A DNA stretch of 64,000 nt from Novisyntrophococcus fermenticellae (GTDB taxonomy: Bacteria > Bacillota > Clostridia > Lachnospirales > Lachnospiraceae): assembly GCF_018866245.1 (NCBI RefSeq), contig NZ_CP076458.1, forward strand, positions 3,038,001 to 3,102,000, given 5' to 3'. Of this stretch, positions 4,098 through 30,623 are shown one piece after another. Below the pieces are notes generated by a model. That model saw only the letters and a list, made by a program, of their open reading frames with translations. It was not told where the DNA came from and made no database searches. A program made the position numbers and the translations under genes. How positions within the stretch are numbered: position 1 is the stretch's first letter; each line of letters starts with the position of its first letter.

Positions 4098-7000
4098 CTA
4101 TTCATCAACTGTTACTGCTTCCTGTTCTTTTTGATCTGCTTCTGCTATTGCCACTTCCTCAGAAACCGCTTCTGTTTCCGCAGCATTATCATCGGTGTCT
4201 GATTCCTCTTCTATTAAAAGCTCTTCTTCACTAAGTGCAAGTTCTTTCAACTGCTTATCCGTATCCAGCTTTATATTGCTGTAACACTTCATACCTGTAC
4301 CTGCCGGAATCAGTTTACCAATCAAAACGTTCTCCTTCAGGCCGATCAGATTATCAATCTTACCTTTGATTGCAGCTTCCGTCAGGACTTTTGTAGTCTC
4401 CTGGAATGAGGCTGCGGAAAGGAAGGAATCTGTAGCCAGAGATGCTTTCGTAATACCCAGCATAACCTGCTTTCCATCAGCCGGTTCTTTTCCTTCTTCA
4501 AGCATCCGCTGATTTGTCTCTTCGTAATCAAGAACGTTCACCAGGGTTCCCGGCAGGAACTCCGTATCTCCATTCTCTTCAATACGAACCTTTTTCAGCA
4601 TCTGACGAACAATAACCTCAATATGCTTATCATTGATTTCAACACCCTGAAGGCGATATACGCGCTGTACCTCACGGATCATATAATCCTGTACATCACG
4701 TACCCCTTTGATTCTTAAGATATCATGAGGATTCACGCTGCCTTCTGTCAGTTCGTCACCGGCTGCCAGCGTCTGGCCATCCTGTACTTTAATTCTGGAT
4801 CCATAGGGAATCAAATAGGTTTTTGCCACACCTTCTTCATCATCCGTAACGGTAATCTCACGCTTCTTCTTGTTGTCTTTAATCACAGCCTGACCCTTGA
4901 TCTCTGTAATAATAGCAAGACCTTTTGGCTTTCTGGCTTCGAAAAGTTCCTCAACACGAGGAAGACCCTGTGTGATATCTCCACCGGCAACACCACCGGT
5001 ATGGAAGGTACGCATCGTCAGCTGTGTACCAGGCTCACCTATAGATTGGGCCGCGATGATACCGACGGACTCACCGACCTGAACGGCTTCACCGGTTGCC
5101 ATATTGGCGCCATAGCATTTCGCACAGATTCCGATATGAGACTTACAGGTTAATATTGTACGAATTTTTATTTTCTTAAATGGCTGACCTTTTTCATCAA
5201 CACCGTCTTTCATAACCCTGGCAGCTCGTCTCGGTGTGATCATATGATTTGCCTTTACAATAACATTGCCATCCTTGTCCTTGATTGTTTCGCAGGAAAA
5301 CCGTCCTGTAATACGCTCCTGAAGACTTTCGATTTCCTCCTTGCCGTCGGCAAATTCCTGCACATATATGCCTGGAATCTCATTTCCTTCGCAGCAGTCC
5401 ACTTCACGGATAATCAAATCCTGTGATACATCCACCAGACGTCTGGTCAGATAACCGGAATCGGCTGTACGCAAAGCCGTATCGGACAAACCTTTACGGG
5501 CTCCATGGGCAGACATAAAGTATTCCAATACATCCAGACCTTCACGGAAGTTAGACTTGATAGGCAGCTCAATCGTATGACCGGTCGTATCAGCCATCAA
5601 ACCACGCATTCCTGCAAGCTGTTTGATCTGCTTATCAGAACCACGGGCTCCGGAATCAGCCATCATAAAGATATTATTATATGCATCCAGTCCGGAAAGC
5701 AGTGCATGCGTCAGCTCATCATCCGTCTCCTTCCAGGTCTCAACAACTTCTTTATAACGCTCTTCATCTGTAATCAAACCACGTTTGTAGTTCCTGGTAA
5801 TCCTATCCACGGTATCCTGTGCCTGCTGAATCAGCTGAGGCTTCTGCGGCGGCACGGTCATGTCGGAAATGGATACCGTCATAGCTGCCCTGGTGGAATA
5901 CTTGTAACCTGTGGACTTAATATCATCCAATACCTCTGCAGTTTTCGTTGCTCCGTGGGTATTGATAACCTTTTCCAGAATCTGTTTCAGCTGCTTTTTC
6001 GCAACCAGAAAATCAACCTCCAGCAGCAATTCATTGCCCGGAACTGTTCTGTCAACATACCCTAAATCCTGAGGAAGAATCTCATTGAAAAGAAATCTCC
6101 CCAGTGTAGAATTAATATTCTCCTGGATTGGATTACCCTCCAGGTCTTTGCCTGCACAACGTACTGTAATACGGGTTTGTAAAGTCAGATACCCATTCTC
6201 ATAGGCCAGAATAGCTTCATTAATATTCTTAAAAGCCATTCCTTCTCCCACTGCTCCGGGTCTTTCCTGTGTCAGATAGTAGATACCAAGCACCATATCC
6301 TGTGAAGGAACAGCTACCGGACCTCCATCAGAGGGTTTTAGCAGGTTATTCGGAGACAGCAGAAGGAATCTGCACTCAGCCTGAGCTTCCACAGACAGCG
6401 GAAGGTGAACAGCCATCTGGTCACCGTCAAAGTCTGCATTGAATGCAGTACATACCAGCGGATGCAGTTTGATTGCCTTACCTTCTACCAAAATCGGTTC
6501 AAATGCCTGAATACCCAGGCGGTGCAGTGTAGGTGCACGGTTCAGCATAACCGGATGTTCTTTAATAACATCTTCCAGCACATCCCAAACTTCGGTCTGG
6601 AGCTTTTCAACCATTTTCTTCGCATTCTTGATGTTATGTGCGGTGCCATTAGCCACCAGTTCTTTCATAACAAAAGGTTTAAAAAGTTCAATTGCCATCT
6701 CTTTGGGCAGACCGCACTGGAATATCTTCAGCTCAGGTCCTACCACAATAACAGAACGCCCGGAGTAGTCCACACGTTTACCCAACAAGTTCTGACGAAA
6801 ACGGCCGGATTTACCCTTCAGCATATCAGAAAGAGATTTCAGTGCACGATTTCCGGGTCCTGTTACCGGACGGCCGCGGCGGCCATTATCAATCAATGCA
6901 TCTACGGCTTCCTGAAGCATACGTTTTTCATTCCGGACGATAATGTCAGGTGCACCCAACTCCAGCAATCTTTTCAAACGATTGTTCCGATTAATAATTC

Positions 7001-20224: not shown

Positions 20225-20252
20225 TTGACTTTATAAGTTTAAGTAGTATAAT
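20225..20252 (+). promoter_or_regulatory. Promoter of the MarR/McsA-like/ClpC operon
   Basis: TTGACT (20225-20230), 16 bases, TATAAT (20247-20252); the start codon follows about 50 bases later. No CtsR heptad operator (GGTCAAA repeats) is visible around it. Confidence 0.8.
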
Positions 20253-20301
20253 GATTTCAAGCAAAATAGTTAAGTTCTTAATTAATAAGGAGGTGAACAA
20301 A

Positions 20302-20760
20302 ATGGGGAGTTCCTTAAAGGATAGCTTCATAAGTGCGTCCTTTCGGTTTAAAAAAGTAGATGCCTGCTATCCCTCAGCTTGCCGCATCCCCTTAAGCGAA
20401 TGGGTAGTTATGGATAAGATTACGAATGGATGCATCTGCACCAGCAGCAGGCTGAATGTATCCGAGATTCAGACCTGTATGCATCTGTCCAGGCCGGCTA
20501 TCTCACAGATACTGAATTCACTGGAGAAAAAAGGATACATCATCCGTGATATAGATTTGAATGACCGGCGGAAAATCTACGTAACCGCAACCCCCAGGGG
20601 AAGCGAGGTTCTAAAAAGAACAAGAACTTCCTATGAACAGGTACTGCAGGAAGTCGTAACCCGATTTGGCGAAGATGAGATGTTTAGACTGATAGAATCT
20701 CTGAACCGTCTTGTAGATATATATGAACGGATCGATCAGGAAAGGAGTGATTTTAGATGA
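20302..20760 (+). CDS. MarR-family regulator heading the clpC operon
   Basis: Winged-helix regulator of 152 residues. The recognition region LSRPAISQILNSLEKKGYI (about 72-90) and wing with DRRKIYV are classic MarR. Two cysteine clusters stand out: DACYPSAC near residues 25-32 and GCIC near 48-51; the second is kept in the paralog at 23708, which hints at thiol or metal sensing. ATG at 20302 has AAGGAGGTG at seven bases; an open frame 17 codons longer lacks a site. It takes the position that ctsR holds in other Firmicutes and overlaps the next gene by four bases (ATGA), so it probably controls its own operon. Confidence 0.85.
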   Translation: MGSSLKDSFISASFRFKKVDACYPSACRIPLSEWVVMDKITNGCICTSSRLNVSEIQTCMHLSRPAISQILNSLEKKGYIIRDIDLNDRRKIYVTATPRGSEVLKRTRTSYEQVLQEVVTRFGEDEMFRLIESLNRLVDIYERIDQERSDFR

Positions 20761-23658: not shown

Positions 23659-23709
23659 AAAAGGATTGGCCATCCCCAAGTCTTCTTTCGGGAATGCCCA
23701 ATCCTTTTT
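23659..23709. terminator. Bidirectional terminator between clpC and the second MarR gene
   Basis: AAAAGGATTGG(C) and CCAATCCTTTTT flank an inner CATCCC/GGGAATG helix; A-run on one side, T-run on the other. The two genes converge here. Confidence 0.85.
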
Positions 23710-24160
23710 AACAATGATACTCATCCTTAAGCTGCTGGAAAACCCTGGTCAGCTCATCTAATTGATTTATGAGCAGAAAAATATTCTCTTCACCAAATCT
23801 GCTGAACAGCTCACTAAGCATCTCATCATAAAGGTTCATAGATTCCAGCAATGCCCGGTCCCCTGCCGGTGTGGTCATCACCGATATTTTTCTGCGATCC
23901 TGGGCATTTATTTCTCTTACTATATAACCCTTTTTTTCAAGCGAATTCAATATCTGGGATACTGCCGGCTTCGTAATATGGAGATTCTCCTGGATTCTGG
24001 AAACATTAAAATCCCGCTCAGAACAGGAACATCCTTTTGAAATAATCTCCAGAATCATAAGCTCATTCATCTGAACCTCACACTCTATAGGAAAAGACGC
24101 GCTCGTTCTCTTAAAACGCATCAACGTACCAAAAAACTGTCTTTTTAATGAGCTATCCAT
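23708..24160 (-). CDS. MarR-family regulator, paralog of the clpC-operon regulator
   Basis: Regulator of 150 residues, clearly paralogous to the protein at 20302: it shares SSLK at the N-terminus, the helix PAVSQILNSLEKKGYIVR, DRRKI in the wing and the RFGE segment near the end. It also keeps a cysteine cluster (GCSC, near residues 43-46) at the same place as GCIC. It is transcribed divergently from the desulfoferrodoxin/ferritin/AhpC cluster, which makes it the first candidate for the factor that binds the shared 18-bp palindromes there. A redox- or metal-sensing role is inferred from the cysteines and neighbours. Confidence 0.83.
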   Translation of the reverse strand: MDSSLKRQFFGTLMRFKRTSASFPIECEVQMNELMILEIISKGCSCSERDFNVSRIQENLHITKPAVSQILNSLEKKGYIVREINAQDRRKISVMTTPAGDRALLESMNLYDEMLSELFSRFGEENIFLLINQLDELTRVFQQLKDEYHC

Positions 24161-24348: not shown

Positions 24349-24380
24349 TTGTATTTTAATACTACATTAGATATAATGTA
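24349..24380 (+). promoter_or_regulatory. Promoter and operator of the oxidative-stress cluster
   Basis: TTGTAT (24349-24354), 17 bases, TATAAT (24372-24377). An 18-bp perfect inverted repeat, TACATTA-GATA-TAATGTA (24363-24380), covers the -10 box, so a bound repressor would block it. The core TTAGATATAA recurs, with the same 7-4-7 design, in the ahpC promoter palindrome. The remaining part of this long gap (24224-24348) shows nothing I can name. Confidence 0.72.
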
Positions 24381-24383
24381 ACT

Positions 24384-24590
24384 TATCGGAAGGAAAACAA
24401 GCGGCTCCGAAGGAGACATTTGTTTTTACCCGATAAGTTAACGAAAAACCGCAGGTTTTGAGTTTATTACACGAAGGAACGCAGTTCCGATAGGGCAATC
24501 TATCGGAAGGAAAACAAGCGGCTCCGAAGGAGACATTTGTTTTCACCCGATAAGTTAACGAAAAACCGCAGGTTTTGAGTTTATTACACG
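24384..24590 (+). repeat. Tandem 90-nt structured leader element, two copies
   Basis: Two copies, 24384-24473 and 24501-24590, identical at 89 of 90 positions and 117 bases apart. Copy 1 starts at the expected transcription start. Each copy folds as a long hairpin (TATCGG/CCGATA, AAAACAA/TTGTTTT, then CTCC-GAA-GGAG) followed by AAAACC-GCA-GGTTTT. The 27-base spacer holds GGAAC-GCA-GTTCC and CCGATAG, which can pair with CTATCGG at 24500-24506, competing with the internal pairing of copy 2. All three loops are C-GNA-G triloops. The leader ends 18 bases before the desulfoferrodoxin start. Family and function are unknown to me. Confidence 0.8.
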
Positions 24591-24608
24591 GTATAGGGAG
24601 GAAATATC

Positions 24609-25001
24609 ATGAAGCACGAACCAGAATTTTATCTTTGCAAACGTTGTGGTAATATTGTAGCATTAGTTCATAAAGGTGGCGGCACATTAGTCTGTTGTGG
24701 TGAAGAGATGACAAAGTTAGAAGCTAATACAACAGATGCCGCAACAGAAAAACACGTACCGGTTATAGAAGTAAATGGTAACGAGGTTACAGTCAAAGTT
24801 GGATCCGTACCTCATCCTATGACAGATGAGCATTATATCACCTGGATATGTATCCAGACAGAGAAGGGAATCCAACGCAAGGATCTTACTCCGAATGATC
24901 AGCCAACCGCTACCTTTGTTCTTACCGATGACGATAAACTGATTAACGCTTTTGAATATTGTAATCTGCATGGACTATGGAAGGCAGAATACAAAGACTG
25001 A
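24609..25001 (+). CDS. dfx: Desulfoferrodoxin (superoxide reductase, 2Fe type)
   Basis: Reduces superoxide to peroxide without making oxygen; 130 residues. The N-terminal desulforedoxin centre has Cys10, Cys13, Cys29 and Cys30. The catalytic iron centre has the exact family set: Glu47-Lys48 (the lid), His49, His69, His75, Cys118 and His121. It begins after GGGAGG and leads a cluster with ferritin, AhpC and an AhpF-like reductase: superoxide to peroxide, peroxide to water, with iron kept safe in ferritin. Confidence 0.96.
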   Translation: MKHEPEFYLCKRCGNIVALVHKGGGTLVCCGEEMTKLEANTTDAATEKHVPVIEVNGNEVTVKVGSVPHPMTDEHYITWICIQTEKGIQRKDLTPNDQPTATFVLTDDDKLINAFEYCNLHGLWKAEYKD

Positions 25002-25019: not shown

Positions 25020-25532
25020 ATGATTGAAAAAGATGTAGTAGCACTTTTGATGAAACAGGTGAACAAAGAATTTTATTCCGCATACTTATATCTTGATATC
25101 GCAAATTACTACGCGGATCAGGGACTGGACGGATTTGAAAACTGGTTTACGATACAGGCGCAGGAAGAGCGGGATCACGCTTTATTGATGCGTCAGTACC
25201 TGCTTAATAATGCGGAACCTGTTACATTAACAGAGATTGCAGCACCGGACAACCATTTTGAAACTTATAGGGATCCGCTGGCTGCTGTGCTGAAACATGA
25301 ACAATACATCACCGCATCCATTAACGAGATATATAAAACAGCTTCCGGTCATCACGATTACCGTACCTTGCAGTTTCTTGACTGGTTTGTTAAGGAGCAA
25401 GGGGAAGAGGAAAAGAATGCAGATGATAATCTGAAAAAATATGATTTGTTTGCAGGCGATTCCAAGGGATTATTTATGCTGGACAACGAGCTGAAAACCC
25501 GTGTATATGCTGCTCCGTCTCTCGTTCTATAG
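25020..25532 (+). CDS. ftnA: Ferritin
   Basis: Iron-storage protein of 170 residues with four-helix ferritin pattern. The ferroxidase region shows KEFYSAYLYLD near residue 15 and the EERDHALL motif near 50, typical of bacterial non-haem ferritin. It starts 18 bases after dfx with AGGAGG upstream and is followed by a terminator. Storing Fe2+ limits Fenton chemistry and fits the surrounding peroxide and superoxide enzymes. Confidence 0.95.
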   Translation: MIEKDVVALLMKQVNKEFYSAYLYLDIANYYADQGLDGFENWFTIQAQEERDHALLMRQYLLNNAEPVTLTEIAAPDNHFETYRDPLAAVLKHEQYITASINEIYKTASGHHDYRTLQFLDWFVKEQGEEEKNADDNLKKYDLFAGDSKGLFMLDNELKTRVYAAPSLVL

Positions 25533-25546
25533 AGATAATTTACAGT

Positions 25547-25588
25547 TCGGTCAAAGTGGGATAAGCTTTCCCATTTTGGCCGATTTCT
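25547..25588 (+). terminator. Terminator after ferritin
   Basis: CGGTCAAAGTGGGA pairs with TCCCATTTTGGCCG around a short loop, followed by ATTTCTTATTCTT. It ends the dfx-ftnA transcript. Confidence 0.75.
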
Positions 25589-29921: not shown

Positions 29922-30623
29922 ATGTCAGATACCGAAATGATTCTAAAGGCTATAGCCGAACTTAGCGACAAGGTTTCATCACATGACAAGAGATTTGATT
30001 TAATCGATCAGCGCTTTGATTTAGTCGATCAGCGCTTTGAGGCAATCGACCAGCGCTTTGAGGCAATCGACCAGCGCTTTGAGGCAATCGACCAGCGCTT
30101 TGATTTAGTCGATCAGCGCTTTGATTTAGTCGATCAGCGCTTTGAGGCAATCGACCAGCGCTTTGAGGCAATCGACCAGCGCTTTGAGGCAATCGACCAG
30201 CGCTTTGAGGCAATCGACCAGCGCTTTGAGGCAATCGACCAGCGCTTTGAGGCAATCGACAGCAGACTTGATTCAATGGACAGCAGGTTTGATTCGATGG
30301 ATAACAGACTTGATTCAATGGACATCAGACTTGATTCGATGGATAACAGGCTTGATTCAATGGACAGCAGGTTCGATTCGATGGATAACAGAGTCTCATC
30401 CATCGAATCAAATCTCACCAAAAAAATTGATCACATTCAGCTGACCCTTGATAATGTTACCAATAGGAATATTCAAATTATTGCCGAAGGGCATTTGAAC
30501 CTGAGCAGGCGTTTGGACGAAGTATTGAAAGTGGAATCGGAAAGAGAAATGCTTCATCTTCGCGTTAACATCATGGGACAAGAACTAAAGGATTTAAAGG
30601 AAAAAGTAGATTCCATAGCCTAG
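29922..30623 (+). CDS. Heptad-repeat coiled-coil protein
   Basis: Unrecognised cytoplasmic protein of 233 residues. Residues 23-162 are twenty consecutive 7-residue repeats: mostly QRFEAID or QRFDLVD, then SRLDSMD-type, with hydrophobics at fixed positions, so a long regular coiled coil is certain. The N-terminus (1-22) and the C-terminal 70 residues (TLDNVTNRNIQIIAEGHLNL, then a second predicted helix) are unique sequence and resemble short tails seen in similar Clostridial repeat proteins. No signal peptide or membrane segment. It lies alone between a ClC gene and a strong terminator. A scaffolding role is possible, but function is unknown. Confidence 0.75.
   Translation: MSDTEMILKAIAELSDKVSSHDKRFDLIDQRFDLVDQRFEAIDQRFEAIDQRFEAIDQRFDLVDQRFDLVDQRFEAIDQRFEAIDQRFEAIDQRFEAIDQRFEAIDQRFEAIDSRLDSMDSRFDSMDNRLDSMDIRLDSMDNRLDSMDSRFDSMDNRVSSIESNLTKKIDHIQLTLDNVTNRNIQIIAEGHLNLSRRLDEVLKVESEREMLHLRVNIMGQELKDLKEKVDSIA
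29988..30407 (+). repeat. 21-bp tandem repeat array inside the coiled-coil gene
   Basis: Twenty units of 21 bases. The first thirteen are near-identical (CAGCGCTTTGAGGCAATCGA plus C, with a GATTTAGT variant), the last seven have diverged (SRLDSMD type). Because the unit is a multiple of three, several other frames stay open through it, producing false ORFs on both strands. Confidence 0.95.

Follow-up and report, generated by a model that had tools for sequence, protein, structure and literature searches.

How the leader of an oxidative-stress operon came to hold two nearly identical hairpin copies is the question raised by a 64,000-nucleotide stretch of the Novisyntrophococcus fermenticellae genome (contig NZ_CP076458.1, positions 3,038,001 to 3,102,000; here, the window). 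The operon opens with genes for desulfoferrodoxin (dfx) and ferritin (ftn), and Pfam bears out the oxidative-stress identity given to it in an earlier note made from the sequence alone. That note had read the copies as a tandem, riboswitch-like leader of redox genes, with a dispersed structured repeat that had landed there as the fallback. Here, the dfx-ftn leader looks like a member of a promoter-docked DNA hairpin family and not like a redox riboswitch, and it looks more like mobile DNA than like a gene-specific RNA switch. In full, we propose that the dfx leader copies belong to a dispersed, noncoding DNA hairpin repeat of Lachnospiraceae that is handled as single-stranded DNA and docked at exposed nontemplate DNA near the -10 box, a reading to which we give an even chance of being right.

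The leader is filled by two direct copies (24373-24473 and 24490-24590), which are 94% identical over 101 nt, and BLAST aligns copy 2 to copy 1 at 99% identity over 90 nt, in agreement with the near-identical tandem units described before. Each copy contains a main hairpin (H1) and a second hairpin (H2), and a third type (H3) lies in the spacer (Table 1). The C-GAA-G and C-GCA-G loops are present in both copies in sequence and in the predicted fold, and the GGAAC-GCA-GTTCC spacer hairpin and the alternative pairing of CCGATAG with CTATCGG were likewise confirmed. The claim that the repeat begins at the transcription start held only in part: the repeat fills the leader, but the left edge of its main inverted repeat, 24379, precedes the expected start near 24384 by about 5 nt, so that the left arm would be transcribed only in part. 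The host promoter TTGTAT-17-TATAAT is absent from the output of a promoter consensus scan, and the sequence upstream of its -10 box lies outside the repeat. Folded as RNA, copy 1 (24378-24474), copy 2 (24495-24592), and the whole leader gave z scores of -5.1, -3.4, and -5.5, respectively, with 0 of 200 shuffles folding equally well in each case; H2 alone (24442-24480) folded no better than shuffles (z, +0.3). Folded as DNA, the top strand of the window copy reached -19.3 kcal/mol and the bottom strand -17.0 kcal/mol. ACGA/GAGT-like bases flanking H2 were seen again by eye in other subfamilies, and a copy-junction hairpin occurs at other loci too, for example, TTACAC-GAA-GTGTAA in the array before a DUF1858 gene of the same genome (L039). 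One scan for terminator-like sites found none inside the dfx leader. Beyond the ferritin gene lie genes for a peroxiredoxin and a thioredoxin-reductase-like protein. We note that a MarR-family regulator (Pfam MarR; 23708-24160, minus strand) is encoded divergently from the operon, that an open reading frame at 20251-20760 (plus strand) resembles it, and that a 233-amino-acid open reading frame at 29922-30623 (plus strand) consists mostly of short tandem repeats (IDQRFEA/DLVDQRFD, then LDSMD) and is coiled-coil-like by eye.

Table 1. Layout of the dfx-ftn promoter, leader, and operon in window coordinates
Feature	Position	Strand	Detail or basis
Sigma-A-type host promoter	TTGTAT 24349-24354, 17-nt spacer, TATAAT 24372-24377	+	Read from sequence
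Copy 1 H1	24379-24440	+	Folds, covariation, within-genome arm matches
Copy 1 H1 left arm	24379-24389	+	TAACTTATCGG; begins 1 nt past the -10 box
Copy 1 H1 core	24398-24422	+	CAAGC-hairpin-CATTTG, GAA triloop
Copy 1 H1 right arm	24430-24440	+	
Copy 1 H2	24441-24463	+	ACGA - AAAACC-GCA-GGTTTT - GAGT; sequence, fold; weak alone
Spacer	24464-24499	+	Holds H3-type hairpin GGAAC-GCA-GTTCC, 24476-24488
Alternative pairing	CCGATAG 24487-24493 with CTATCGG 24500-24506 of copy 2	+	Sequence, fold
Copy 2 H1	24500-24557	+	Left arm shortened: CTATCGG 24500-24506
Copy 2 H1 core	24515-24539	+	
Copy 2 H1 right arm	24547-24557	+	
Copy 2 H2	24558-24580	+	Sequence, fold
Copy 2 end and ribosome-binding region	24581-24608	+	AGGGAGG 24595-24601; directly 5' of dfx
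dfx, desulfoferrodoxin	24609-25001	+	Pfam PF01880, PF06397
Ferritin gene	25020-25532	+	Pfam PF00210
Intrinsic terminator-like hairpin 3' of ferritin gene	25547-25583		Terminator scan: 1 found, shuffles expect 1.7

The same element occurs elsewhere in the genome. BLAST and a covariance model built from 11 copies (R1) found 10 copies in four arrays: 2 before dfx, about 3.75 before the DUF1858 gene, 3 before a folC-like gene, and 1 plus a partial copy before a response regulator gene. Units are more alike within an array than between arrays, and the differences between arrays carry compensatory changes. Across 10 distinct sequences, 93.4% of cells were paired and nine pairs had changed on both sides, giving a covariation score of 0.219 versus 0.096 in shuffles, a score that 0 of 500 shuffles reached. 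The signal was destroyed by sliding the pairing partners, and the number of further pair types was unexceptional (122 of 500 shuffles). A structured, covarying element had been predicted, and both properties were found: the fold is far beyond shuffles and paired changes separate the arrays. What the earlier note held to speak against it was scattered homologs without covariation; the homologs are scattered, but the covariation is strong. By eye, several downstream copies of arrays lack the outer left arm.

How far the family extends was asked in several collections. At an E value of 0.001 or below, R1 matched 30 of 200 Lachnospiraceae genomes (one per genus, the window's genome included), with at least 22 matches each in G116, G173, and G206, 20 in G199, and 19 in G141; these counts may include opposite-strand readings of a copy, as in the window's genome, where 11 matches stand for 10 copies. 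In its own genus, four of six genomes matched, and class-wide, 3 of 291 did, all of them Lachnospiraceae. A core-pattern scan of GTDB species genomes returned at least 120 stretches, and among the 80 matches listed, nearly all came from Lachnospiraceae or from broader Clostridia/Bacillota bins. A match on a Hahella contig (L291) was discarded as it did not match the family model and looks like chance. Carriage by phages was also set aside, a viral collection having yielded one core-pattern stretch, at a contig edge. The fallback of the earlier note, a dispersed structured repeat, is supported.

The element was said to match no known RNA class, and a covariance-model search agreed. Rfam at its gathering threshold gave no element match in the window or in 18 related loci, and at a relaxed threshold the dfx element drew only a snoRNA (E value, 8.8). 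The sole gathering match in the window was a ribosomal protein L10 leader (RF00557; 12901-13039, minus strand; 74.9 bits). Moreover, open-licence PMC text yielded no description of the hairpin family, and this repeated DNA hairpin family of Lachnospiraceae, mostly gut bacteria, is apparently undescribed.

The genes that follow the element are diverse. Forty downstream genes were drawn at random from 121, and 29 of the 40 were scanned; NCBIfam supplied names for 18 of the 29 proteins, each name being that of the best model, sometimes under that model's curated cutoff. The 18 functions all differ: ispE, FtsK-like, acetyl-CoA acetyltransferase, HPr, MATE, metH, NAD diphosphatase, malic enzyme, fabF, iolC, murE, truA, glycosyltransferase, peptidylprolyl isomerase, pdaA-like, mreB, LL-DAP aminotransferase, and trpE. 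Two arrays lie directly 5' of single tRNA genes (L107 and L151), and one core lies between two tRNAs (L332); tRNA-Asn and tRNA-Ala are among the genes that the element precedes. With 18 different functions and tRNAs downstream, no association with genes of one pathway was seen. In addition, congener G003 has a dfx gene without the element. Upstream of a second dfx in G003 (L199) there is a different, longer tandem repeat of very roughly 200 nt containing GGGTCAAAAGGTCC, to which a sequence in G005 (L047) is similar by eye. Two arrays of G173 (L104 and L108) are directly followed by a further repeat that they share (AAACTCAATTTTACTAAGTTCG...), which gives the impression that families of repeats become nested at common sites.

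Most arrays of the hairpin repeat lie immediately next to one of three features: a -10 box, a stop codon, or a terminator. We sorted 167 arrays by context, having dropped L122 and L136, whose core lacks CAAGC. In class A (116/167), a -10-like hexamer lies 12 to 24 nt before the core, and in 92 it is exactly TATAAT; the class is defined by a five-of-six match to the -10 box, so the hexamer content is partly by construction, and the -35, the TGn, and the spacing are independent. The upstream profile of these 116 arrays shows TTG at 17-nt spacing and a TGn, with low information elsewhere, and is a sigma-A promoter. A similar extended TG is reported for the promoter of Clostridium phytofermentans (PMC5171806). 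In class B (14/167), the stop codon of the upstream gene supplies the first bases of the arm. In class C (23/167), a T-run precedes the core, with a terminator-like hairpin by eye in 18 and a doubtful one in L255, L294, L339, L340, and L341. At L324, the element is closely preceded by a T-box match (5252-5521), and a terminator-like hairpin separates the two. Class D comprises 5/167 arrays that read ATTATACC before the core, and 9/167 fall outside classes A to D. The class D arrays (L236, L253, L302, L311, and L313) hold the core between ATTATACC on the left and GTATAATG on the right. Class D is a compact element with two -10-like boxes that possibly carries its own divergent promoters, and six class A members with TATTAT, reading TATTATACC, probably belong to it.

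The promoter association was also seen against controls. Among contig first copies, those with fewer than 120 nt to the left or 150 nt to the right of the core were left out, which reduced 123 loci to 105, and to 104 after removal of duplicates. At these core-only loci, a -10-like hexamer ends 15 to 21 nt before CAAGC in 65/104. Over 5 to 60 nt, such a hexamer was found in 69/104; the controls gave 28 (interval moved another 55 nt upstream), 35.7 (shuffled bases), and 10 (right side, reverse strand). The best -35 match of at least 4/6 lay at 16 to 18 nt in 25/67 cases, compared with 32/201 at control spacings. As for orientation, 99 of the 109 called right-hand genes of class A are co-oriented with the element, as is the next gene in 12 of the 14 class B arrays. 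The hairpin repeat is multicopy, tandem-amplified, structured, and mostly co-oriented with the next gene. We note that in two genera, a groEL-like ATGATG-TAA or ATGATG-type stop is the exact point at which elements begin (L202 in G002 and L122 in G119); the stop of this gene, named by eye from its Gly-Met-rich end, may be a recurrent insertion site.

Whether the main stem is kept as RNA or as DNA can be read from its outermost pairs. In bacteria, the usual distance from the -10 box to the transcription start is about 7 nt, and the bases at +2 to +6 past the box are therefore not expected in the transcript. Arms were aligned in 115 class A elements (L051, which lacks the core end, was dropped), and only Watson-Crick pairs were counted. 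Positions +2 to +6 were paired in 103, 104, 108, 108, and 112 of the 115 elements (90 to 97%), compared with means of 75.2, 64.2, 72.3, 73.8, and 64.6 when arms were swapped, a control that ignores kinship between elements. In the 91 elements with an exact TATAAT, the counts were 80, 81, 87, 88, and 90, compared with 63.8, 49.4, 57.4, 60.4, and 50.3 for swapped arms. All four Watson-Crick pair types occur at each of these positions, in the 115 elements and also in the 91, and the -10 box itself shows no clear pairing excess. Moreover, of 42 elements in six genomes, 40 had the exact reverse complement of +2 to +6 in the right arm, and 13 different sequences were represented. Covariation is therefore not confined to transcribed RNA, for a start placed by promoter spacing. 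Since bases outside the expected transcript are nonetheless paired, the stem is constrained, or copied, as DNA. These alignments indicate that, given a normal transcription start, the main stem is maintained as DNA and not only as RNA.

The loops were considered next to the stem. Loops selected as RNA would be expected to favor GNRA. The contig pattern demanded C-GNA-G and CAAGC..CATTTG, which fixes the core loops and the core G.T pair by construction in contig loci; for this reason, loops were counted again with the core excluded, and the figure for the G.T pair comes solely from the model-found alignment A3. Outside the core, 81 of 97 triloops were GNA, 63 closed by C-G, compared with 2 of 9 in shuffled sequence, and the 52 tetraloops included 12 GNRA, 15 GNYA, and 11 C-GNAB-G. 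Whole elements gave 91 GNA among 118 triloops and 62 tetraloops with 13 GNRA and 15 GNYA; the core hairpins of the model-found set gave GNA in 17 of 21 triloops. The title of a 2002 paper by Nakano reportedly names d(cGNNAg) and d(cGNABg). Extraordinary stability in DNA is attributed to GNA/GNNA mini-hairpins (PMC4686876). In A3, 105 of 106 rows retain the core G.T pair, which gives the two strands different shapes. Elsewhere in H1, outside that invariant pair, A3 holds 33 G.T and 13 A.C, an excess that leans to RNA and is not decisive, the alignment having been fitted to an RNA model. Stem mismatches of any kind are very rare.

Related genomes bear on how the sites were filled. The orthologous DUF1858 promoters of congener G004 (L217) and the window's genome (L039) both end in AAAAGGTATTATAATG, and the element follows directly in L039 only, which suggests that the host -10 box came first and the element second; there may be a faint relic further downstream in G004. 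G032 and G230, of one genus and 87.6% alike upstream, share ..CCGATGATGTAA with the stop codon kept, after which G032 has the element and G230 a different sequence. Their alignment reaches the left side only, the right junction having diverged, and no target duplication is readable from that side; the upstream sequences of G206 and G229 gave no alignment. The left boundary of the element is sharp and the right end is variable. Of 58 arrays with a followable core repeat, 24 stop no more than 8 nt from the ..CATTTG that closes the hairpin module and the others are scattered, in a count from which the method censors short overlaps. Array periods are mostly 90 to 130 nt. The right ends suggest a basic form of H1-H2-H3-half-H1, which could grow by recombination between two like cores.

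A search for a mobilizing enzyme of the hairpin repeat found none. The Y1 transposase family PF01797 had 0 matches in the window's genome (G000) at an E value of 1e-5, and it was present in 14 of 30 element-positive genomes and in 98 of 170 others (the same 200-genome draw being assumed). An association with Y1 transposases, which are not enriched in element-positive genomes, is thus not supported. The core motif was absent beside Y1 transposase genes at 30 loci, and no autonomous version of the element was seen among 322 loci, where three core pairs lay 300 to 4,500 nt apart, one of them being two known arrays of L147.

How, then, might the repeat spread? We infer mobility, an enzyme behind it, its cleavage sites, and a role of the transcription bubble. 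The nontemplate strand, which carries the GNA loops, would fold as single-stranded DNA. A hairpin-specific single-strand nuclease or transposase of the REP/IS200-605 working type would cut it and insert it 3' of a short ..TG-type site. Insertion would be preferred where the strand is exposed, for instance in an open promoter melted at its -10/discriminator region or in a paused elongation bubble. Recombination of the left-end hairpin core with the right-end half-copy might afterwards generate the tandem units. That the element serves as a gene's leader would simply follow from its insertion there, and an effect on dfx expression, if any, would be secondary. More specifically, and only tentatively, the repeat might represent a class of structure-recognized single-stranded DNA hairpins whose mobility is targeted by the transcription machinery (open promoter complexes and attenuator terminators), with a palindrome in the discriminator of housekeeping genes that is amplified in the leader and moved by a non-PF01797 enzyme.

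Other explanations account for parts of these data. The element could be a cis-acting RNA leader whose transcribed H1-H2-H3 part stabilizes the mRNA 5' end or binds a general RNA-binding protein in many transcripts, with tandem copies adding to the effect. Most elements do stand at the start of an untranslated leader and face a co-oriented gene (99/109 in class A and 12/14 in class B), the RNA fold is strong, a G.U is conserved, and some class C elements follow attenuators, such as the T-box at L324. We nevertheless find this explanation unlikely, as covariation is no weaker in the outer-stem pairs that precede the expected start than in the inner ones, two arrays are flanked by a promoter and a tRNA gene and one is flanked by tRNAs on both sides, the tetraloops lack a GNRA preference, and no regulon emerges. 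Nor does a ligand-responsive tandem riboswitch specific to the dfx-ftn operon, as first suggested, retain more than the slightest credence. The tandem, structured leader and the alternative pairing at the copy junction would suit such a switch, but the same element precedes unrelated genes in the same genome and tRNAs elsewhere, is absent before dfx of congener G003, lacks an Rfam match, and has no terminator-like site in the leader in one scan. A redox-operon riboswitch was rejected on dispersal and gene content.

The remaining alternatives act on DNA. Perhaps the palindrome is a promoter module in which negative supercoiling extrudes H1, or nascent RNA pairs with the nontemplate strand, and open-complex formation is altered as a result, making the promoter sensitive to supercoiling or R-loops. 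A palindrome that begins 1 to 2 nt past the -10 box and includes the discriminator, arms that are free in sequence yet strictly paired, and loop types stable in DNA are all consistent with a module of this kind. We consider it improbable because the stop-codon and T-run classes (14/167 and 23/167) are left unexplained and because downstream array copies lie away from the promoter, several by eye without the outer left arm. Alternatively, the covariation may be unselected, if intrastrand template switching during replication corrects imperfect palindromes and makes an inert repeat look paired. Such correction would act alike on transcribed and untranscribed pairs and would keep stem mismatches very rare, both as observed; free correction should also erase the core G.T, yet 105 of the 106 A3 rows retain it, and docking is left unexplained. 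Template switching thus seems to us a poor prospect. A mobile DNA hairpin repeat docked at exposed nontemplate DNA remains the reading we prefer.

About 100 loci carry the repeat right after a -10 box, with a DNA palindrome that pairs the untranscribed discriminator with the transcribed leader. If the preferred reading is right, they connect transcription bubbles with the transposition of single-stranded DNA in a way that can be tested. It would seem from the family that a hairpin repeat has remodeled the promoters and leaders of numerous genes in these bacteria, and Lachnospiraceae leaders of such a kind could be misread as riboswitches by covariation scans. Like tandem riboswitches and Rfam leaders, the repeat forms a tandem structured 5' leader; unlike them, it has no Rfam match and no coherence among its genes.

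To our knowledge, a start right after the -10 box combined with a discriminator-leader palindrome is not a pattern of REP, BOX, ERIC, or Correia repeats. BOX elements of pneumococci are comparable in architecture, being intergenic repeats whose tandem inner modules vary in number and which are predicted to form stem-loops, and one lies upstream of a trp cluster with a T-box (PMC3049150). The comparison is by description and across host families, and a start at the -10 box is not part of the BOX description cited here. DDE-type MITEs have terminal inverted repeats and a target-site duplication; what is seen here is a hairpin inside the repeat and a right end that varies. REP, REPIN, and BIME sequences, which go with TnpA-REP (RAYT), are characterized as short intergenic palindromes of 20 to 50 nt with strand-specific features and a conserved stem mismatch, in tandem clusters, most often with GTAG and with CT or CA cleavage, and bound as folded single-stranded DNA (PMC8266576). 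The hairpin repeat shares with REP an imperfect palindrome, a conserved mismatch, strand asymmetry, and a multicopy intergenic distribution. It differs in its mostly 90- to 130-nt periods, its two or three hairpins in head-to-tail arrays, its docking after -10 boxes, and its arms, which vary from copy to copy; by eye, GTAA/GTAG is often at the 5' end here, but it is paired into the stem and is not universal. REP/RAYT and IS200/IS605 elements have a cognate Y1 transposase, PF01797 is absent from the window's genome, and we therefore do not file the repeat under REP/RAYT. With nonautonomous, palindrome-associated, MITE-like elements of the IS200/IS605 type it has in common subterminal hairpins, a single-strand logic, and insertion beside a short site, although no transposase was found for it and its ends and target are putative. 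In IS608, a guide model accounts for site pairing, and by analogy the terminal TTTG could be recognized through guide-like pairing with the 5'-foot CAAG. Ultimately, by these likenesses, the hairpin repeat would appear to work most like REP/REPIN sequences and the ends of IS200/IS605 elements.
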